A stretch of 45,164 nt of DNA from NCBI GenBank assembly GCA_018607905.1, contig JABBAP010000031.1, positions 1-45,164 on the forward strand, given 5' to 3'. This document shows, piece after piece, positions 7,954 through 29,791 of this stretch. The position numbers were made by a program, and so were the translations under genes. Position 1 is the stretch's first letter. The number at the start of each line of letters is the position of its first letter. A model generated the notes under the pieces. It ran no database searches and was not told the DNA's origin. It worked only from the letters and a program-made list of their open reading frames with translations. The DNA comes from Paracoccaceae bacterium (GTDB lineage Bacteria; Pseudomonadota; Alphaproteobacteria; Rhodobacterales; Rhodobacteraceae).

Positions 7954-9567
7954 ATGTCGGAACAAACCAAACCCAACGTCATCCTAATACTGGCCGACGA
8001 CATGGGCTTTGCAGACCTTGGGATCACTGGATCGGAAATTCAAACCCCCAACATCGACGGGCTGGCGCAAGACGGCGTCATGCTCTCAGCGATGTACAAT
8101 TGCGCACGCTGCTGCCCCACCCGCGCGTCCCTTTTAACGGGCCTCTACCCCCACAACGCGGGCGTCGGCCACATGGGCGCAAACCTTGGCACACCCGCCT
8201 ATCAGGGATTTTTGCGCAAAGACAGCGCCACAATCGCCGAACATTTACGCGCAGACGGCTACGCCACATTGATGTCTGGAAAATGGCACGTCGCAGGCGA
8301 TTTCGACAGCAATAAAATCGACAGTTGGCGCGTTGGCACACCGGAACACCCAACGCCCATGCAACGCGGCTTCGATCATTTCTATGGCATCATGGACGGC
8401 GCGGCACATTTCTTTTCGCCCCACTGCATCTTTGAAGACGAGAGCCGCGTCGATACAATCAATGATGATTTCTACTTCACCGACGCCATCACCGACAAAG
8501 CAATCGGCATGATCAAAGGCGCAGTAGCAGACGAAAAACCGTTCTTCCTCTACCTCGCACACACCGCCCCGCACTGGCCGCTTCACGCCCCACCAGAAGA
8601 TATCGCAAAATACGAAAACACCTACGCCAAAGGCTGGGATCAAACCCGAACCGCCCGCCACGAAGCCATGAACGGCAAAGGCGTGTTGCAACAAAATTGG
8701 GATATTTCGCCACGCGATACAGACGTGCACGATTGGGGCGACGAAAAGAACCAAGATTGGGAAGCCAGCAAAATGGCCACCTACGCCGCGATGGTGGATC
8801 GGATGGATCAATCCATCGGCAGGCTAATTGCTTCGCTCAAACAGCTCGGCCAATTCGAAAACACGCTGATCCTATTCCTGTCGGACAACGGCGGCTGCGC
8901 CGAATTCATGGCCGAAGACGGCTGGGCGCAATTCTATCCAGATCAAACCCACGACGGCAAACAAATCACGATGGGCAACGTCACTGGCCTGCGCCCAGGG
9001 GACGCGCAAACCTTCCAAAGCTACGATAAACCGTGGGCCAATGTATCGAACGCGCCGTTCCGTCTGTTCAAACACTTCGTCCATGAGGGCGGAATTTCGA
9101 CACCACTGGTCGCCCATTGGCCCGACGGGTTTCAACCCCGTTCAAACGCCCACGCCGCCTGTCACGTCGTCGATATCCTGCCAACCATTTTAGAAGTAAC
9201 TGGCGCATCTTATCAAAACGAAGTCGACGATCACGAAATCCAACCAATGCAAGGCGAGTCCCTTTTGGGCCTGTTGCGCGGCAAAGATTGGGAACGCGAG
9301 CAACCGATTTTCTGGGAACACGAAGGCAACGCCGCCGTGCGATTGGGCCAATTCAAACTCGTACGCCAACACAACTTGGATTGGGAATTATACGACATGG
9401 AAGTTGATCGAACCGAACTGCATAATCTGATTGGCAAGAACCCAAAGTTAGAAGCCGAAATGGCAAAACAATACTTTGATTGGGCGGATAAAATCGGCGT
9501 AATGGATTGGGAACAAGCACTGCCAAAACTGCTGGCGGCGTGGGATATGGAAACAGTGAATGGGTGA
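7954..9567 (+). CDS. arylsulfatase (type I, Cys-type)
   Basis: Sulfatase of 537 residues that hydrolyses sulfate esters. The N-terminal NVILILADDMGFADLG supplies metal-binding aspartates. The activation motif CCPTRASLLTG begins at Cys53 (C-x-P-x-R), the residue converted to formylglycine in the active enzyme, so a formylglycine-generating or anSME maturase must be encoded elsewhere. HTAPHWPLHAP (near 200) and LSDNGG (near 310) are other conserved sulfatase segments. No signal peptide is visible, implying a cytoplasmic enzyme. The substrate could be an aryl or choline-type sulfate or a small sulfated sugar; the sequence alone does not decide. Confidence 0.93.
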   Translation: MSEQTKPNVILILADDMGFADLGITGSEIQTPNIDGLAQDGVMLSAMYNCARCCPTRASLLTGLYPHNAGVGHMGANLGTPAYQGFLRKDSATIAEHLRADGYATLMSGKWHVAGDFDSNKIDSWRVGTPEHPTPMQRGFDHFYGIMDGAAHFFSPHCIFEDESRVDTINDDFYFTDAITDKAIGMIKGAVADEKPFFLYLAHTAPHWPLHAPPEDIAKYENTYAKGWDQTRTARHEAMNGKGVLQQNWDISPRDTDVHDWGDEKNQDWEASKMATYAAMVDRMDQSIGRLIASLKQLGQFENTLILFLSDNGGCAEFMAEDGWAQFYPDQTHDGKQITMGNVTGLRPGDAQTFQSYDKPWANVSNAPFRLFKHFVHEGGISTPLVAHWPDGFQPRSNAHAACHVVDILPTILEVTGASYQNEVDDHEIQPMQGESLLGLLRGKDWEREQPIFWEHEGNAAVRLGQFKLVRQHNLDWELYDMEVDRTELHNLIGKNPKLEAEMAKQYFDWADKIGVMDWEQALPKLLAAWDMETVNG

Positions 9568-10327
9568 TCAAATGTCAAAGAAAGACCAAATTCGCGCTTT
9601 GCTAAAAAGCATTGAAACAGGCGATCCCGAACCCATCGCTGTGGTCAATGAGGCGAAATACATCCAGCACAATCCGCAAACCCATGAAGGCAGCGAGGGG
9701 CTCGCATCGCTGTTTGCCCGCCTGTCCAAAACCAACCCGCGCGTGAATGTCGTTCGCGCGTTTGAAGACGGTGACTATTTCTTCGGCCACACCGAATACG
9801 ATTTTGCATCCCGACGCATCGGCTTCGAAGTGTTCCGTTTTGAAGACGGCCAAGCCGTTGAGCATTGGGACAACATCCAAGAACGACACGGCCCAAATCC
9901 ATCGGGCCACAGCATGGTGGACGGCCCAACAGAAGCCACAGATTTTGATCGAACCGAAGAAAACCGCACGCTAATTCGCAGGTTTTTGGAAACGGTTTTG
10001 ATCAAAGGTCAGCACGACGAACTGCCCGATTTCATGATGCCCAATTACGTAGAGCATAACCCCAATCTAACCGACGGAATTGCCAATCTGCGCACTGCGC
10101 TAATCGCAAAAACCGACGGCACGCGAACAATCGACTATCACCAAACCCACCGCATTCTGGCGCAGGGCAATTTCGTCCTCGCCGTGACTGAGGGCGAAAA
10201 CGCAGGCGCGCATTCCGCCTTCTACGATCTCTTCCGCGTCGCAAACGGCAAGATTGCCGAACACTGGGACACCACCGAAAAAGTCGCTCCGAAAGAAGCG
10301 TGGAAGAACGACAACGGGAAGTTTTGA
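9560..10327 (+). CDS. tandem SnoaL-like/NTF2-fold protein
   Basis: 255 residues made of two homologous halves. Each has a YIQHNPQTHEG / YVEHNPNLTDG motif (near residues 31 and 161) and a closing EHWDNIQE / EHWDTTEK motif (near 101 and 229). This pattern matches SnoaL-like polyketide-cyclase-type proteins of the NTF2 fold (the 'predicted aldol condensation-catalysing' group). The ATG at 9560 overlaps the sulfatase stop by 8 bp; an alternative ATG at 9572 gives 251 residues, and neither has a strong ribosome binding site. Translational coupling with the sulfatase is likely. Function unknown. Confidence 0.85.
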   Translation: MGDQMSKKDQIRALLKSIETGDPEPIAVVNEAKYIQHNPQTHEGSEGLASLFARLSKTNPRVNVVRAFEDGDYFFGHTEYDFASRRIGFEVFRFEDGQAVEHWDNIQERHGPNPSGHSMVDGPTEATDFDRTEENRTLIRRFLETVLIKGQHDELPDFMMPNYVEHNPNLTDGIANLRTALIAKTDGTRTIDYHQTHRILAQGNFVLAVTEGENAGAHSAFYDLFRVANGKIAEHWDTTEKVAPKEAWKNDNGKF

Positions 10328-10329
10328 GT

Positions 10330-10454
10330 TAGCGCTATGCCCGACCTCGGGAGGCCTCGACTTCGGGTGCTTTGATTTGGCCATAACCAAAATTTTGGCA
10401 AACACTGCCAGCAACGCGAATGCCCTCCCATGGGGGAGGTCGGGCATAGCGCTA
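10330..10454. repeat. interspersed-repeat-like element with perfect 19-bp inverted ends
   Basis: TAGCGCTATGCCCGACCTC at 10330-10348 is repeated exactly as its reverse complement at 10436-10454. Inside lie secondary hairpins: CCTCGGGAGG at 10345-10354 and CCTCCC...GGGAGG around 10424-10439. The element is 125 bp, begins 2 bp after the SnoaL gene stop, and has no convincing ORF. The structure suggests a MITE- or REP-like intergenic repeat. Copies elsewhere in the genome cannot be checked here. No transposase is nearby and target duplications were not identified. Confidence 0.65.
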
Positions 10455-10492: not shown

Positions 10493-10570
10493 TTAACCTT
10501 TTGGCGTTAACTTTTGGTGCCATACAAAGTGCCATACAGGTGCCATACGCTTTGCATACCGTTTTCATAC
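10493..10570 (-). repeat. phased GTATG-box array, copy A
   Basis: Read on the minus strand, five GTATG boxes (plus-strand CATAC starting at 10521, 10533, 10544, 10555 and 10566) are spaced 11, 11, 11 and 12 bp. They are followed 22 bp later by GGTTAA (plus-strand TTAACC at 10493-10498). The core matches copy B at 26161-26249 at about 43 of 45 positions, with the same 11, 11, 12 spacing. It sits in a convergent intergenic region between the SnoaL gene and the rpoC terminator, so it is not placed as a promoter of either gene. Function unknown. Confidence 0.75.
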
Positions 10571-10650
10571 GCTTTGCGGACAATTTCTCGCCCTCAAAAT
10601 CATGGTTAACGGGCCAATCTTACCCCACCGTACGCACCCTGCCCCGGAAC

Positions 10651-10706: not shown

Positions 10707-13700
10707 TTAGCTTGGCTGTTCTGTGCCGTCGCCGCTATCGCCAAATCCTGCGCTTAGGTCTTCACCCATCACGCCGTCATTAGCTTCGGAAACCTTAAAG
10801 CCTTCCATGTTGTCGTCCCCAACTGGGCCGAGCAATGCTGCAGCTTCTTCTGCTGCAATTCTTGCGCTTTCAACAACAACGGTATCACGATCAGCCGCGA
10901 TCTTTTTGATCTGGAAGGTCGCACCGCCCGTACCCGCTGGGATCAAGCGCCCAACGATGACGTTCTCTTTCAGACCGATCAATTTATCGCGCTTACCTTG
11001 AACAGACGCTTCCGTCAGAACCCGTGTGGTTTCTTGGAAAGATGCCGCAGAGATAAACGAACGTGTTTGCAACGAAGCCTTTGTAATACCAAGAAGAATT
11101 GGTCCACCTTTGGCTGGGTCGAGACCCTTCGCCGCGGCTTTCGCATTCACTTCGTCAAACTCGGCTTTGTCCACCTGCTCACCCTTCAGAAGGGTCGTGC
11201 CGCCAGAGTGGGTGATTTCCCACTTTTGCAGCATTTGGCGAACGATCACTTCGATGTGCTTATCGTTGATCTTCACGCCTTGCAGACGGTACACGTCCTG
11301 AACTTCGTCCACCATATAGTCGGCCAACGCTTCAACACCCATGATATTCAGGATGTCATGGGGCGCTGGATTGCCGTCCATGATGTACTCGCCCTTGCGG
11401 ATGAAATCACCTTCCTGAACAGGAATGTGTTTCCCCTTTGGAACCATGTATTCCACTGGTTCCGCGCCTTCTTCGGCAGCTTCGATTGAAATGCGACGTT
11501 TGTTTTTATAGTCGCGGCCAAAGCGTACGTAACCATCAATCTCAGCGATGATCGCGTGGTCTTTTGGACGACGTGCTTCAAACAATTCCGCAACCCGTGG
11601 CAGACCACCAGTAATGTCTTTCGTCTTCGCACCTTCGCGCGGAATACGAGCAACAACATCACCAGCTTTTACCTCTTGGCCGTCTTCAATGGACAAGATA
11701 GCATCAACAGAAAGCGCATAGGAAATTGGGTTGCCCAGCTCGTTACGCTCAGGATCGCCATTGGCATCCATGATGATAATTTCAGGCTTCAGATCGCTGC
11801 CTTTTGGCGCAGAACGCCAATCAGTAATGATCTTCTGGCTGATACCAGTCGCGTCATCGGTCTCGTCACGAACAGAGATGCCCGGAACCAGATCGACAGC
11901 TTTCGCAGTACCCGCTTTTTCTGCGATAATCGGCAGAGTATACGGATCCCATTCATACAGCTTGTCACCACGTGCAACTTTGTCGCCGTCTTTGACCATG
12001 ATTTTGGAACCATAAGTCAATTTGTGCGACGCGCGTTCCACATCGTTTTCGTCCATGATCGCAATCTCAACGCTCCGACCCATGATGACCATTTCGCCGT
12101 CACGGTTTTTCAGAATGTTGGCATTGCGCAGCTCGACTTTACCGTCGACGCTGGCTTCTTGGAACGATTGCTGACCACCTTGCGCAATACCGCCGATGTG
12201 GAATGTCCGCATCGTCAGCTGTGTGCCAGGTTCACCGATGGATTGTGCGGCGATGATGCCCACAGCTTCGCCCGGGTTCACTTGCGTGCCCCGTGCCAAA
12301 TCGCGGCCATAACATGTTGCACAAATACCGTCTTCGGCTTCACAGGTTAGCGGCGAACGGATGAACAAGGTCGGAACACCAGAGTTCTCGATCAAGTCAG
12401 CCATACGCTCGTCGATCAGCTCACCACGTGGGCAGATCACTTCTTCTGTGCCAGGCTTCAGAACGTCTTCATTGGTTACACGGCCCAGAATACGCTCGGA
12501 CAAGGAAGCAACAACTTCACCGTCGTTAACCGCAGCAGATGCTGTGATGCCGTTTTCTGTTCCACAATCGATTTCGCGAACGATACAATCTTGTGCAACG
12601 TCAACCAAACGACGTGTCAGATAACCAGAGTTAGCCGTTTTCAAAGCCGTATCTGCCAGACCCTTACGAGCCCCGTGGGTGGAGTTAAAATACTCCAAAA
12701 CGGTCAGACCTTCTTTAAAGTTCGAGATGATCGGCGTTTCGATGATTTCACCGTTCGGCTTAGCCATCAAACCACGCATACCACCCAGCTGCTTCATCTG
12801 TGCAGGGGAACCACGCGCGCCAGAATGCGCCATCATGTAAACCGAGTTTGGCTCCATTTCAGTACCAGCATCGTCTACTTTCATGGACGAAATTTCGCCC
12901 ATCATCGCATCCGCAACCGCATCCGAACATTTCGACCAGCTGTCGACAACTTTGTTGTACTTCTCACCCTGAGTGATCAGGCCGTCGAGATACTGTTGTT
13001 CGAACTCTTTTACTTGGTCACGTGTGTCGTTCACGATGTGCCATTTGCTGTCAGGGATAACCATGTCGTCCTTACCGAACGAGATGCCAGCCTTAAACGC
13101 TTCGCGGAAACCCAAGGTCATGATCTGATCACAGAAGATCACAGATTCTTTCTGACCACAGTAGCGGTAAACGATGTCGATGACCTCGCCCACTTCTTTT
13201 TTCCGCAGCAAACGGTTGACGATGTCAAACGGCGCTTTGGTGTTCAGCGGCAGCAATGTACCCAAACGAACCCGACCAGGCGTCGTTTCGTAACGCACAA
13301 AGATAGAATTACCCTCGTCGTCAACCTGCTCCACACGGCAGTTAATTTTGGAGTGCAAATGCACGATGCCAGCGTCCAGCGCGTGGTTTACTTCCTGTGG
13401 GGAAGCAAACGTCATGCCTTGGCCTTTCATGCCTTCGCGTTCCAGCGAAATATAGTAGATGCCCAAAATCATATCCTGTGAAGGAACGATGATTGGCTTA
13501 CCGTTGGCAGGCGACAGCACGTTGTTTGTCGACATCATCAGAACACGCGCTTCCAACTGGGCCTCAAGGCTCAGAGGAACGTGAACCGCCATTTGGTCAC
13601 CGTCAAAGTCGGCGTTAAACGCGGAACACACCAGCGGGTGCAGCTGAATGGCTTTACCCTCGATCAGTGTGGGTTCGAACGCTTGGATGCCCAAACGGTG

Positions 13701-14996
13701 AAGCGTCGGCGCACGGTTCAACAGAACTGGGTGCTCGCGGATCACTTCGTCGAGAATATCCCAAACTTCTGGGCGTTCTTTTTCCACGATTTTCTTGGCT
13801 TGCTTCACAGTCGAAGACAGACCTTTGGCTTCAAGCCGTGAATAGATGAACGGCTTGAACAGCTCCAACGCCATCTTCTTAGGAAGACCACATTGATGGA
13901 GTTTGAGTTCAGGCCCCGTTACAATTACTGAACGACCAGAGAAATCGACCCGTTTACCCAAAAGGTTTTGACGGAAGCGACCTTGCTTACCTTTCAGCAT
14001 GTCGGACAGTGATTTCAACGGGCGTTTGTTCGCACCCGTGATCACACGGCCACGACGGCCGTTGTCAAACAACGCATCCACAGATTCTTGCAACATCCGT
14101 TTTTCGTTACGCACGATGATATCAGGCGCACGAAGTTCGATCAGACGTTTCAAGCGGTTGTTACGGTTGATAACCCGACGATACAGATCGTTCAGATCGG
14201 ACGTCGCAAAACGACCACCATCCAGTGGCACCAAGGGGCGCAATTCTGGCGGGATCACAGGGATAACTGTCAAAATCATCCACTCTGGGCGGTTGCCAGA
14301 TTCTAGGAAGGATTCAACAACTTTAAGACGTTTGATGATCTTCTTTGGCTTCAATTCGCCAGTGGCTTCGGCCAGATCAGCACGCAGCTGGTCGGCTTCT
14401 GCTTCCAGATCAATGTTGGACAGCATTTCACGGATGGCTTCTGCACCAATACCCGCGTTAAACGCATCTTCGCCAAAGACGTCTTGCGCGTCCATGAACT
14501 CTTCTTCGTTCATCATCTGACCATAGTTCAGGTCCGTAAGACCCGGCTCGATCACAACGTATTGTTCAAAATACAGAACACGTTCCAGCTCGCGCAGGGT
14601 CATGTCCAGCATCAGGCCGATACGGCTTGGCAGGGATTTCAGGAACCAGATGTGCGCAACAGGTGCTGCCAATTCGATGTGGCCCATACGTTCGCGACGT
14701 ACCTTTTGCAGCGTTACTTCGACACCACATTTTTCGCAGGTCACACCGCGGTATTTCATCCGCTTGTATTTGCCGCACAGACATTCGTAATCTTTGATCG
14801 GGCCAAAGATACGTGCGCAGAACAGGCCGTCCCGCTCTGGTTTGAACGTACGATAGTTGATGGTTTCTGGCTTTTTAATTTCGCCGAAAGACCATGACAA
14901 AATCCGCTCTGGCGACGCAAGTGAGATTTTGATCTCATCAAATGTGCGTGGCGCCTGGACGGGGTTGAACGGGTTGTTCGTGATTTCTTGGTTCAT
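10707..14996 (-). CDS. rpoC: DNA-directed RNA polymerase subunit beta'
   Basis: Largest core subunit of RNA polymerase, 1429 residues, the usual alphaproteobacterial length. The N-terminal zinc ribbon ([19 protein letters not shown], near residues 71-89), the catalytic metal loop [15 protein letters not shown] (near 460) and the second zinc-binding cysteine group ([19 protein letters not shown], near 890) are all present. The acidic C-terminal tail ([19 protein letters not shown]) is typical of the group. It lies 47 bp after rpoB and is co-transcribed with it. No intein or split is seen. Confidence 0.99.
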
Positions 14997-25850: not shown

Positions 25851-26042
25851 TTAGAATGCCAGAATTGTCGACAGGAGAAGCTGAATCAATTGATCCATGC
25901 CAAAGAAGAACAGCGCAAACACAAACGCCATGATAAAGACCATGACCGTTGTGATCATCGTTTCACGGCGTGTCGGCCAAACGATCTTAGCGACCTCAGC
26001 GCGAACCTGTTGCATGAACTGCAGTGGATTTGTAACAGCCAT
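25851..26042 (-). CDS. secE: preprotein translocase subunit SecE
   Basis: Small inner-membrane subunit of the SecYEG channel, 63 residues, the short single-span alphaproteobacterial form. The amphipathic segment VRAEVAKIVWPTRRETMITT precedes one transmembrane helix (VMVFIMAFVFALFFFGMDQLI). It lies upstream of nusG. No tRNA-Trp gene was found before it, although that arrangement is frequent in bacteria. The upstream 251 bp contain a short palindrome and phased-box array B. Confidence 0.96.
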   Translation of the reverse strand: MAVTNPLQFMQQVRAEVAKIVWPTRRETMITTVMVFIMAFVFALFFFGMDQLIQLLLSTILAF

Positions 26043-26121
26043 GATCGGCTCCTGTAGCTATTTTCAAAGGTTCAGATACGCCTTTGCGTTGCATAAGACA
26101 AGGGGTGGGCGCGCGCTCAAT

Positions 26122-26160: not shown

Positions 26161-26249
26161 GTATGGCAAAAGGGCTGCAAAGTGTATGCAAAGCGTATGG
26201 CATGTGTATGGCACTTTGTATGGCACCCGTTTCGCAGACCAAAGGTTAA
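26161..26249 (+). repeat. phased GTATG-box array, copy B
   Basis: GTATG boxes start at 26161, 26184, 26195, 26206 and 26218 (spacing 23, 11, 11, 12), with GGTTAA at 26244-26249. The last four boxes match copy A closely in sequence and spacing; the 23-bp gap is two turns, with one box lost. It lies between the secE 5' end and the RTX-gene 3' end, in the opposite orientation to copy A. It may be a regulatory or architectural site near the secE promoter, or one member of a dispersed repeat. Confidence 0.75.
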
Positions 26250-26293: not shown

Positions 26294-29200
26294 TCAAGCC
26301 ATGCCGCGACCCAATACTTCTGCCTCGTATCCCTTCAAACTGAACCGTGCGGCGGGGCCGTAGGCGGTTGGTTGGTCGGCGAGTTCTGGGAACAGCGACA
26401 AGATTTCATCCCGCGCGTCTTGGCTAACGGCGTCCATCGCTTGTTCGCCGGGATGAAAGCTCTCGGACAGGGCGCCGTTGGCGTGGATCACTTGATGGGT
26501 TTCAAACAGGATGTGGAAATATTCAACCGTTTCCAGTTTTGCGCGGTACACGCCATCCCAGCTGAGCAGGTGTTTGGCGGGAACCAAAACTTCGGGCTCG
26601 CCAAACAGCAATTCTGCCACCGAGCCTGCGACCAACATGCGGTGTTGTGGGCTGACGGTTAGATCGGAGTGGTTGCCAAGAACGCCTTTTGCGATTGTGA
26701 TCGGTGCGAAATCGCCCGTAGCTGGAACTGTCCGCGAGCCGATCCATTTTATTTGTTGCAACCCGTGATCGAGGCTGAGGATCTGATCACCCTCGGACAA
26801 GTCCTCGATCAAGACTTCCCCTGAATGGGTCAGGATTTTTGTGCCGCGCGCAAAACAAATAATGTTCTCGATCTCGGAGAAATCAACACGGGTGCCGTCG
26901 AGCAAAAACGCAAAACCCGTAAGCCCGCCGTTTGCATCATCGTCATCGGTGATGACCAATGTACCCGTGTCGAGCAGGCCGTTGAAATTGAGCGTGTCGC
27001 CGTTTGTTTCGCCGCCTTCACCGCCAACAATGGTGATGTTGCCAGTGCCCGCGTCGGTCTGGTTGATGTTGAACGTGTCGTCGCCGTCTCCACCCGTAGC
27101 GACATCGCCGTCGCCAACCGTAATCGTGTCGTCCCCGGTGCCGCCCGACAGTGTGTCGTTGCCGTCACCACCTGCAAGCGTGTCATTCCCTGCGCCACCG
27201 ATTAGAACATCTGCGCCAGTGCCACCCGTGATACTATCGTTGCCATCACCGCCATCAATGGACAGGTCCGTCGTGGACAATGCGCCATCAACGGTGTCGT
27301 CTTGATCCGTAAGAATGAGGGCTTCGATATCGCTGAAGGAGGCGTCAGTTCCAGTGCCATCAATCGTGCCTGTTTCGCTCGCCGTGAAGGTAACATCAAC
27401 GCCAGAGGTGAGGCTCGACATATCAATCGTATCTGTGTCTGTACCGCCTGATCCCCCGTCAATGCTGTCGGTGCCGCCACCATCTTGCAGAACAAACGTG
27501 TCTGCATCATCGCCACCAAACAGCGTGTCGTCGCCGCCACCACCGTTGATTGTGTCGCTGCCCGTGCCGCCATACAGCTCGTCGGCCGCCGCGCCGCCAG
27601 TGATGGTGTCATCGCCAGCGCCTGCGAAAACGGTCATTGAATCAGTGGCAAGCGCGCCGTTGATCGTGTCCGCCTGCCCTGTCAAAACAAAGCTTTCGAT
27701 TTCAGAAAAATTAACCGTGTCAGCGCCGCTGGTTACTGTGCCTGTTTCGCCACCAGTGAAATCCACGCTGATACCGCTGGTCACTGCGGATGCGTCGATT
27801 ACATCGTTATCTGTACCGCCTTCGCCGCCTTCAATCGTGTCGTTGCCAAAGCCGTCTTGGTACAAAAATGTGTCCGCATCATCGCCGCCAAACAAGGTAT
27901 CATCGCCACCGCGACCATCCAGCGTATCCGCGCCAGCACCGCCGTAAAAGATGTTGGTGAAATCTACACCTTGGGCGTTAAATCCTGTCAGAGTATCGCC
28001 AAAATCGGACCCAATGAGGCCGTCAATTCCAGCGATTGTGTCGCCAGTCGCGTGCCCCCCCGAAGTCGCGTTAGACGTAAGGTTTACGGAAACACCCGCA
28101 TCAGAATTGGAATAATCTGCGAAATCCATGCCAGCGCCGCCAGCCAAAGAGTCCGCGCCTGCGCCGCCTTCAAGTGTATCGTCGCCAGTGCCCCCGATAA
28201 GCGTATCGTTACCAGTGCCGCCAATCAGGCTGTCGTCGCCTGCACCGCCATCAATAGACATAGACGTAGTCGAGGCTGAGCCATCAACCGTGTCGTTTTG
28301 GTCGGTCAAAATCAGGTTTTCAATTTCGCTGAACGTGGCATCTGTATCAAAGCCATCCACGGTGCCTGCTTCATCGCCTGTGAACAAAACCGTGACACCC
28401 GATGTTAGCGCCGAGGCGTCGATTGTATCGCTGTCTGTGCCACCTTCGCCGCCAACAATGCTGTCATCGCCAAGGCCATCGCCCATCTGGAATGTGTCTG
28501 CATCATCACCGCCGAACAGCGTGTCATCATCTTCGGACGCATTGATGGTATCGTCGCCTGTGCCACCATAAACCGTGTCGCTTTCGACACCACTGTCGAT
28601 GCTGTCATCACCTGCGCCCGCATCAACGATGTCTTCGTTGCCGCCAAGTGGGATCGCCACAAATTCAACGTCGGTAATATAAACCGCCTGCGTACCCGTT
28701 CCGCCCTGATCGTAATCAACAACGAAATACGCAACAGGGCCAGGAATGGTAATTAAAACGGACCCGTCCAGATCCGATTCAGAGTTGGCGTTATCCCCGC
28801 CCGTAATGGTGTTTCCGACGACGGTTTCATCACCACCTACGGTGAATTGGACCTCGATTTCATTGCCATCAGCATCATAGGCACGAACGGTGATCACATC
28901 GCGAAACGCGCCTGTGGCACTGTCGATATCATTGATGCGAAACTGCACATCTCTGACTTCTTCGCTGTAGCCAGACCCCGTTACAGATGAAAAATCCACC
29001 CGCATGGTAGACGTGTCGCCGCTTGGCCCGTTCCCGTACAACAGCAAAGAAGAGTTTGGATCAAAGCCTTCGCCTGCGCCAACGTATTGGGTTTGGGACG
29101 ATTCAACGCTCCATTCCGTGCCCGCGCCATCGTCGGTAAAGCTAACATCTACTTGGATGCCGCCGGTGTCTTGGGAAACGCCGCCAAACAGGTCGGTTTC

Positions 29201-29791
29201 ATCCGCCCCTTCGGCATCCCAGTTTAGATCCAGATCAACGCCTGTGACATTTATACTATCAAGGCCATCGACCTCTTCGCCCTGTGGATCACCCGTGTAA
29301 CTATCGTCGATGACATCATCATTGTCAGTGCCGTCAACCGTGCCATCAGGGTTATCGGCAACATAATCATCGTAGCTAAAGGTTGCGTCTGCCGCGTCTG
29401 GATCATCGTTAAATGTAACTGTGCGGTACACATGGCCAGGAACAAGTGGCAGTTCAGAAACCGTATAATAGCCGCTCGCACCGCCATTTTCGACGTGAAA
29501 CGTAACTATTTGAAACGTCTCGCCTGTGGTCACGTCTAATAGTGTCCAACTTTCTTCGGCGCTGACAGCTTCACCAGAAGAGGTGTTGCCGTTGATCGTT
29601 ATCGAAACGGTCGCGTCCTCGCCCGAGGTGTTGTCTTCAAGCGTTTCACCAAGCGTCCCTGACCCGCTGTCAGATATAATGGCATTGGTTTCAGAATTTG
29701 CAGGCCCTGAATAGGTAATCTCCCCGCCCACCGTTTGTGAAAACGTGAAAAAGGGATCGAAATCGTATACTCCGACTGTAAAATCAGTCAT
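26294..29791 (-). CDS. RTX-repeat calcium-binding protein with C-terminal Hint_2 domain
   Basis: 1165 residues, strongly acidic, without an N-terminal signal peptide, as expected for a type I secretion substrate. Residues 1-380 form a beta-rich, non-repetitive region. Residues 385-960 hold clusters of GGxGxDxLxG nonapeptides, which bind calcium after export. The Hint domain begins at Cys979 (CFARGTKILT), includes SPQHRMLV, and ends with THQVIHANGALSESF; about 50 further residues follow. Hint_2 domains at the end of RTX proteins are common in roseobacters and may self-process. No HlyB/HlyD genes are in the window. The role could be surface attachment, matrix or biofilm; this is inference. Confidence 0.9.
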   Translation of the reverse strand: MTDFTVGVYDFDPFFTFSQTVGGEITYSGPANSETNAIISDSGSGTLGETLEDNTSGEDATVSITINGNTSSGEAVSAEESWTLLDVTTGETFQIVTFHVENGGASGYYTVSELPLVPGHVYRTVTFNDDPDAADATFSYDDYVADNPDGTVDGTDNDDVIDDSYTGDPQGEEVDGLDSINVTGVDLDLNWDAEGADETDLFGGVSQDTGGIQVDVSFTDDGAGTEWSVESSQTQYVGAGEGFDPNSSLLLYGNGPSGDTSTMRVDFSSVTGSGYSEEVRDVQFRINDIDSATGAFRDVITVRAYDADGNEIEVQFTVGGDETVVGNTITGGDNANSESDLDGSVLITIPGPVAYFVVDYDQGGTGTQAVYITDVEFVAIPLGGNEDIVDAGAGDDSIDSGVESDTVYGGTGDDTINASEDDDTLFGGDDADTFQMGDGLGDDSIVGGEGGTDSDTIDASALTSGVTVLFTGDEAGTVDGFDTDATFSEIENLILTDQNDTVDGSASTTSMSIDGGAGDDSLIGGTGNDTLIGGTGDDTLEGGAGADSLAGGAGMDFADYSNSDAGVSVNLTSNATSGGHATGDTIAGIDGLIGSDFGDTLTGFNAQGVDFTNIFYGGAGADTLDGRGGDDTLFGGDDADTFLYQDGFGNDTIEGGEGGTDNDVIDASAVTSGISVDFTGGETGTVTSGADTVNFSEIESFVLTGQADTINGALATDSMTVFAGAGDDTITGGAAADELYGGTGSDTINGGGGDDTLFGGDDADTFVLQDGGGTDSIDGGSGGTDTDTIDMSSLTSGVDVTFTASETGTIDGTGTDASFSDIEALILTDQDDTVDGALSTTDLSIDGGDGNDSITGGTGADVLIGGAGNDTLAGGDGNDTLSGGTGDDTITVGDGDVATGGDGDDTFNINQTDAGTGNITIVGGEGGETNGDTLNFNGLLDTGTLVITDDDDANGGLTGFAFLLDGTRVDFSEIENIICFARGTKILTHSGEVLIEDLSEGDQILSLDHGLQQIKWIGSRTVPATGDFAPITIAKGVLGNHSDLTVSPQHRMLVAGSVAELLFGEPEVLVPAKHLLSWDGVYRAKLETVEYFHILFETHQVIHANGALSESFHPGEQAMDAVSQDARDEILSLFPELADQPTAYGPAARFSLKGYEAEVLGRGMA
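26911..28640 (-). repeat. RTX nonapeptide coding repeats with three long modules
   Basis: Degenerate GGxGxD-coding repeats occupy this part of the RTX gene. A longer module of about 120 residues recurs three times, beginning at DDTLFGGDDADTF near residues 424, 630 and 754. Each copy continues through SGVxVxFT...GT and FSxIExLxLTxQxDT to an SIDGG-type end. A unit distinct from the module (FADYSNSDAGVSVNL) separates the first two copies. Confidence 0.8.

Follow-up and report, generated by a model that had tools for sequence, protein, structure and literature searches.

In bacteria, GC skew is normally ascribed to the direction of replication, transcription and selection contributing less, and a strand on which G exceeds C (and T exceeds A) bears the mark of a leading strand that advances in the 3′ direction. 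KOPS, the FtsK-orienting sequence GGGNAGGG, is a single 8-mer, and Chi, the directional hotspot of RecBCD/AddAB, is a single short word found every few kilobases. The PHO boxes of Streptomyces have been described as direct repeats with an 11-nucleotide unit (PMC6988585), and the CenR motif is given as TGA-N8-TGA, the letters of which count to 11 bp although the paper writes 10 (PMC9275681). In plasmid R388, StbA acts on two sets of five 9-bp repeats separated by two nucleotides, which lie in an operon adjacent to the transfer origin (PMC3098194). For the Rhodobacterales, a survey available to us in part reports GC-skew peaks that are enriched in core and GTA (gene transfer agent) genes, with codon selection as part of the cause (PMC9836097). 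Among the titles and abstract openings of the openly licensed literature, we found no description of arrays such as those reported here or of a local skew linked to them. The novel result is their polarity: in some marine bacteria, the direction of a GTATG array usually matches the strand that is rich in G over the following thousands of bases.

The window analyzed here is a 45,164-nt stretch of DNA from a Paracoccaceae bacterium (genome G000, the own genome below). An earlier note on this DNA had described two arrays of GTATG boxes, each followed by GGTTAA, and both were borne out on re-measuring. Array A (10521–10570, minus strand) consists of five boxes starting at 10570, 10559, 10548, 10537, and 10525 (spacing 11, 11, 11, and 12 bp), with the words AAAACG, CAAAGC, GCACCT, and GCACTTT, and its GGTTAA starts at 10498 (10493–10498, minus strand). 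Array B (26161–26222, plus strand) has boxes at 26161, 26184, 26195, 26206, and 26218 (spacing 23, 11, 11, and 12 bp), with one non-GTATG unit between 26161 and 26184 accounting for the 23-bp gap, and its GGTTAA starts at 26244 (26244–26249, plus strand). Compared by eye, the last four boxes of the two arrays are identical at 43 of 45 bases, as had been claimed. A degenerate first unit, GTCCGCAAAGC, was also seen by eye in phase ahead of array A (10571–10581, minus strand), and this unit or a near variant (e.g., GGCTGCAAAGC) stands, again by eye, ahead of most of the 36 arrays of the own genome. GGTTAA is probably not part of the array proper, because a similar flank occurs without an array at rpoC in the relative G003. 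The pattern (GTATG N6-7)x3 matched five times in the window and not once in 100 dinucleotide shuffles, so shuffled sequence does not reproduce it, in agreement with the earlier reading.

Array A lies between convergent genes, as previously noted: rpoC (10707–14996, minus strand), the stop codon of which is 137 bp away, with a terminator-like hairpin recognized by eye between the two, and a SnoaL-like gene (9560–10327, plus strand). Downstream of the latter gene, we also noted by eye a 19-bp inverted repeat, TAGCGCTATGCCCGACCTC and its complement (10330–10348 and 10436–10454, loop of approximately 87 bases), of which no exact 20-base version was found. Array B sits between a minus-strand gene (26294–29791), whose 1165-aa product carries RTX calcium-binding repeats and, C-terminally, a Hint_2 domain, and a short frame on the minus strand (approximately 25867–26043), which we took for secE because it precedes a NusG-like frame. 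The window's only Rfam match at the gathering score, the Rhodo-rpoB RNA (RF03074; 19211–19303, minus strand, 46.8 bits) directly upstream of rpoB, is located away from the arrays, and an Rfam RNA element was rejected as their identity.

The earlier note had counted two loci. The own genome (3.17 Mb) contains 74 overlapping matches to the pattern, grouped into 36 arrays, which rules out a two-copy site and reveals a dispersed family. An array is a run of about three to six head-to-tail 11-bp units with the core GTATG, or a GTCGG-like core in other dialects, and the consensus in the own genome, derived by eye, is gtCCGCAAAGC-GTATGCAAACG-GTATGCAAAGC-GTATGGCACCT-GTATGGCACTTTT. Five bases of the unit are fixed and the other six vary inside most arrays, which are not simple tandem repeats (LSSR). 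Two atypical arrays of the own genome have the reversed word order: L046, upstream of what by eye looks like prfC, and L042, which precedes a gene that by eye is cold-shock-like. One of them mixes GTATG and GTCGG boxes in a single 11-bp phase. Among the first 100 of the 157 GTATG pairs with gaps of 1–28 in this genome, the gap was 6 in 71 pairs, 7 in 9, 5 in 1, and another length in 19, the sole gap-5 case (a 10-bp step) being an isolated pair. In contiguous 400-kb stretches drawn from contigs already known to bear arrays, start-to-start distances of 10, 11, and 12 bp numbered 0, 35, and 2 for Puniceibacterium sediminis DSM 29052 (G110) and 0, 14, and 0 for Pseudooctadecabacter jejudonensis CECT 8397 (G178). 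When all 1024 5-mers were compared as W in a (W N6)x3 test in these two stretches, GTATG, its one-base shifts, and their complements ranked at the top. The 11-bp step thus stands, while the rule of one helical turn per box does not quite hold: with 10 bp almost absent and 11 bp dominant, the step looks more like a protein footprint than like B-DNA phase alone.

Three-box arrays were present in 9 of 41 genomes, the own genome included, all in its genus, and four-box arrays in 11 of 296 genomes of the family (295 genera); a scan of the wider collection listed at least 119 array stretches, from which no rates are derivable. The spacer words are genome-specific “dialects”: CAAAGC and GCACCT in the own genome, GCTGGC and GTTTGC in Pseudooctadecabacter, GAAACC and GAAAGC in Puniceibacterium, and ACTCGC in G113. 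Arrays with differing words occur at orthologous places (gltD-gltB, gltX-comEC, the gyrB 3′ end, and others), which were looked up without using the box pattern and counted by eye, leaving out G011 and G046 (weak, probably paralogous matches) and the contig-edge case L227. At the gyrB 3′ end, at least two phased boxes were seen in 4 of the 29 displayed genomes (one not evaluable), with decayed boxes in one; upstream of gltX, an array was seen by eye in 7 of 30 genomes; downstream of gltD, a GTATG array was found in 6 of 28, and the same step with GTCGG-like cores in four more (G001, G006, G014, and G021); and at the rpoC 3′ end, only the own genome of 27 has an array, the relative G003 having similar flanks and none. 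A GTCGG search gave matches in 7 of 33 genomes; by eye, the same four have array-like ones at other places too, and those in G003, G012, and G041 are probably unrelated. The array is thus absent at a given place in most relatives, and where it is kept, the step and the place persist while the core and the spacers drift. Because the boxes and the 11-bp step persist at orthologous loci while the spacers change, something would appear to read the boxes and keep the array phased. The idea of a phased site that something reads is supported to this extent, but not as a two-copy site. Dozens of scattered copies are what the earlier note expected of an interspersed repeat; the conservation of position and the polarity exceed a plain repeat, and we regard the earlier interpretation as a whole as partly supported.

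Bacteroidota, too, have intergenic arrays in which GTATG is constant and the six-base spacers vary (L060–L178, e.g., L062, L100, and L114), some of them adjoined by inverted CCATAC units (L060). These showed no GC-skew polarity (26/53 positive) and were therefore treated as separate, a common origin being set aside.

According to the gene calls around the 36 arrays of the own genome, 12 lie between convergent genes, 19 between tandem genes (11 and 8), 1 between divergent genes, and 4 have a gene call on one side; the caller was a simple codon-usage script, and a looser caller shifts some of these placements. In Pseudooctadecabacter, 18 arrays were placed ->-, 10 +>+, 7 ->+ (divergent), and 4 +>- (convergent). 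Arrays between convergent genes are excluded as promoters, and those between tandem genes could be promoters. An RNA element of the 3′ untranslated region was rejected as the sole reading, since arrays also lie antisense between tandem genes. Exact three-box arrays in Pseudooctadecabacter are spaced more evenly than random (33 gaps, mean 79 kb, CV 0.56, P=0.0004), which suggests that the distribution of the arrays may be under selection.

Local GC skew was positive on the GTATG strand at 34 of 36 arrays in the own genome and 37 of 39 in Pseudooctadecabacter. The same held for 19 of 20 arrays in Puniceibacterium (the 20 distinct arrays among the loci listed of 80 matches), 9/11 in Amylibacter sp. 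SFDW26 (G018), 10/10 in G009, 6/6 in G011, and 5/5 in G023, with 1/3 in G001, 1/1 in G024, 0/1 in G006, and 1/1 in G013. Among the matches listed for other four-box loci, 47 of 55 were positive; these 55 were hand-picked among at least 119 stretches, one is assigned only to Alphaproteobacteria, and some overlap with G009, G011, G018, G110, and G178. The exceptions include L020 and array B of the window, which is without the usual positive skew on its GTATG strand and also opposes the KOPS direction of the window (0 KOPS with it, 3 against). Arrays with ATC/ACT words, classed by eye, were mostly non-polar (3/8 positive). In Pseudooctadecabacter, the skew was positive in genes on the array strand (37/37), in genes on the opposite strand (34/39), and in intergenic DNA (38/39). 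The effect is therefore present in genes of both strands, and a coding-strand artefact was rejected.

When the 5 kb on either side were compared in array-bearing genomes, the skew stepped up at the array in 34 of 39 cases in Pseudooctadecabacter (p<1e−4), 15 of 20 in the own genome (p=0.017), and 9 of 11 in Puniceibacterium (p=0.0098). Control points 4–5 kb downstream of the array showed no positive step. Because the rise sets in 1–2 kb or more ahead of the array, upstream controls did step: at −4 kb in Pseudooctadecabacter (26/39, p=0.029) and at −4 and −5 kb in the own genome (p=0.010 and 0.016), there by more than at the array. In a 9-kb test, the step was seen in 33 of 39 cases in Pseudooctadecabacter (26/31 for plus-strand genes and 25/36 for minus-strand genes), with no left-right difference in its intergenic DNA alone (4/9, p=0.73), and in 16 of 19 in the own genome (p=0.0008; 24 of 36 arrays used), where the T-A skew rose from 0.026 to 0.078. 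Flanks of approximately 1.9 kb showed no left-right difference in the own genome, in other members of the genus, or in Puniceibacterium. These comparisons show that the rise of G over C starts near the array and runs in the 5′-to-3′ direction of GTATG for several kilobases or more; the accompanying rise of T over A on the GTATG strand is clearest in the own genome.

The array direction was compared with KOPS as a marker of replication. In a 400-kb stretch of Puniceibacterium (C45:1–400000), KOPS point one way (84 vs 9), and yet the skew goes negative around five minus-strand arrays; 6 of the 11 arrays agree with the KOPS direction, and KOPS are not inverted in the zones downstream of the minus-strand arrays (20 vs 3). 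On the array strand, the skew changed from −0.011 in the 8 kb upstream to 0.066 in the 8 kb downstream of the array at 282 kb, and from −0.066 to 0.085 at 338 kb; the arrays at 11.6, 102, and 214 kb, three of 11, showed no increase, and the one at 233 kb was flat. A model with a baseline and exponential tails extending from the arrays fitted this stretch with an R2 of 0.445, a decay length of 12 kb, and coefficients of 0.107 downstream and 0.059 upstream, an R2 that none of 500 circular shifts and none of 500 orientation shuffles reached (nine decay lengths were tried in the fit and four in the permutations). The fit for the 400 kb of Pseudooctadecabacter was modest (R2 0.101, equaled by 0.4% of shifts), and the T-A skew gave no signal there and a weak one in Puniceibacterium. 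Downstream skew stayed positive at arrays that opposed KOPS, at all eight of them in Pseudooctadecabacter (two near zero) and at six of seven in the own genome, the KOPS counts per 20-kb window being small. Thus, in the Puniceibacterium stretch, the skew follows the array rather than KOPS, and a polarity due to replichore alone was demoted.

We tentatively propose, at somewhat less than an even chance, that the arrays are dispersed, direction-bearing sites for an oligomeric binder and mark the start of a recurring, one-way, strand-asymmetric DNA process. A putative protein would bind the units cooperatively, one subunit per unit and in a single direction; the array would mark where the recurring transaction begins, and the GTATG strand would be left in a “leading-strand” state. 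A more specific guess, which we hold loosely, is a Chi-like or restart site for a recombination intermediate, at which a 3′ end made at the site could prime a replication fork moving to the 3′ side, and the fork would then lie on the side of the observed skew. A point against this explanation is that events linked to repair might occur too seldom to leave a mark on skew. A stronger version, in which the arrays themselves drive local asymmetry over approximately 10–20 kb in many cell cycles and override the replication-based skew, seems doubtful to us.

Somewhat less probable still is that the arrays simply take their orientation from replication, as KOPS and other strand-biased oligomers do, and that inversions have flipped array and skew together. 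KOPS do run the same way as the array in 30 of 39 Pseudooctadecabacter windows, and the survey cited above infers, in its available part, increased inversions in Rhodobacterales, with core and GTA genes in the skew peaks (PMC9836097). Such inversions should have turned KOPS as well, unless these were quickly re-selected, but KOPS keep their direction in the minus-array zones of Puniceibacterium; a step located near the array is not predicted either, and along that stretch array and KOPS direction agree at only 6 of 11 arrays. The 36 copies with genome-specific words and common flanks, and the sporadic presence in 11 of 296 genomes, would suit a REP-like interspersed repeat that has no cellular role, is kept uniform by gene conversion, and avoids genes. 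We nevertheless consider such a repeat unlikely, given that the boxes and the step are kept at orthologous sites while the spacers change, that the arrays have polarity and a skew step, and that they are evenly spaced in Pseudooctadecabacter.

The unit length and the head-to-tail order are those of the Streptomyces PHO boxes as described in the portion of the report at hand (PMC6988585), and the step resembles that of TGA-N8-TGA bound by CenR of R. sphaeroides, as given in the corresponding part of that paper (PMC9275681); the arrays are head-to-tail 11-bp direct repeats, as operators of OmpR/PhoB-type regulators binding 11-bp units would be. Such operators are, in our estimation, distinctly unlikely, because many sites, lying between convergent gene calls, cannot be promoters (in the own genome, 12 of 36 are convergent, against 1 divergent; in Pseudooctadecabacter, 4 of 39 are convergent, against 7 divergent), no shared function of the targets was apparent by eye, and a skew step is not predicted. 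The arrays could finally be oriT-like or pac-like starts of a one-way DNA transfer or packaging, with the exported strand exposed to deamination. StbA of R388 acts, as far as the available description goes, on repeats with an 11-bp step near a transfer origin (PMC3098194), and an inverted half-box (GTATGGC N3-12 GCCA) follows the last box in 18 of 38 Pseudooctadecabacter arrays (L363–L401), against a shuffled mean of 1.9. We find this reading very improbable: a blastn search of plasmids with a 43-base array query, a weak test, gave no match, the eight stretches on viral contigs carry other words and flanks by eye, links to phages or plasmids were rejected on these grounds, and transfer is probably too rare to set the skew.

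If the arrays themselves drive local asymmetry, they could explain part of the GC-skew peaks in Rhodobacterales, and a cause of the reported peaks (PMC9836097) would become directly testable. Chromosome strand asymmetry would have a new determinant in a short, recognizable site that, in the stretch examined, outperforms KOPS as a predictor of skew sign over several kilobases. The dialects also offer a natural system in which to study how a DNA-binding protein and its dozens of sites evolve together.

Among known systems, REP/BIME elements (PMC2817692) are, like the arrays, dispersed intergenic repeats, but they are palindromes, whereas the arrays consist of direct repeats and have no palindromic body; the arrays form no REP-type hairpin, only the terminal inverted half-box in some of the Pseudooctadecabacter arrays. 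The TAACTGA heptamer repeats also comprise many short intergenic direct-repeat sets per genome and are sporadic across phyla, but, as described in the accessible text, their unit is an invariant heptamer and they lie mostly directly upstream of start codons (PMC4679880). The R388 stbDRs likewise come in fives of direct repeats at an 11-bp step, but they belong to one plasmid, differ in sequence, and are not described, in the part of the report available, as a dispersed chromosomal family (PMC3098194). Compared with PHO/OmpR-family operators as presented in the available excerpts, the arrays extend beyond promoters and have three to six units, genome-specific words, and a link to skew. Chi is directional like the arrays, and a fork restarted there would lie on the side of the observed skew, but the arrays are sparse and multi-unit rather than single short words, and a Chi role here is one that we infer. 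KOPS, finally, share with the arrays a chromosome-wide distribution, an orientation that matters, and a correlation with GC skew. As single copies outside arrays, GTATGGC shows no strand bias (34 vs 37), bare GTATG a modest one (273 vs 203), and CGTATGGC a count of 4 vs 15, while GGGCAGGG stands at 93 vs 18, and the KOPS word was accordingly rejected as the identity of the array. KOPS are present separately in these genomes, and the arrays can point against them.
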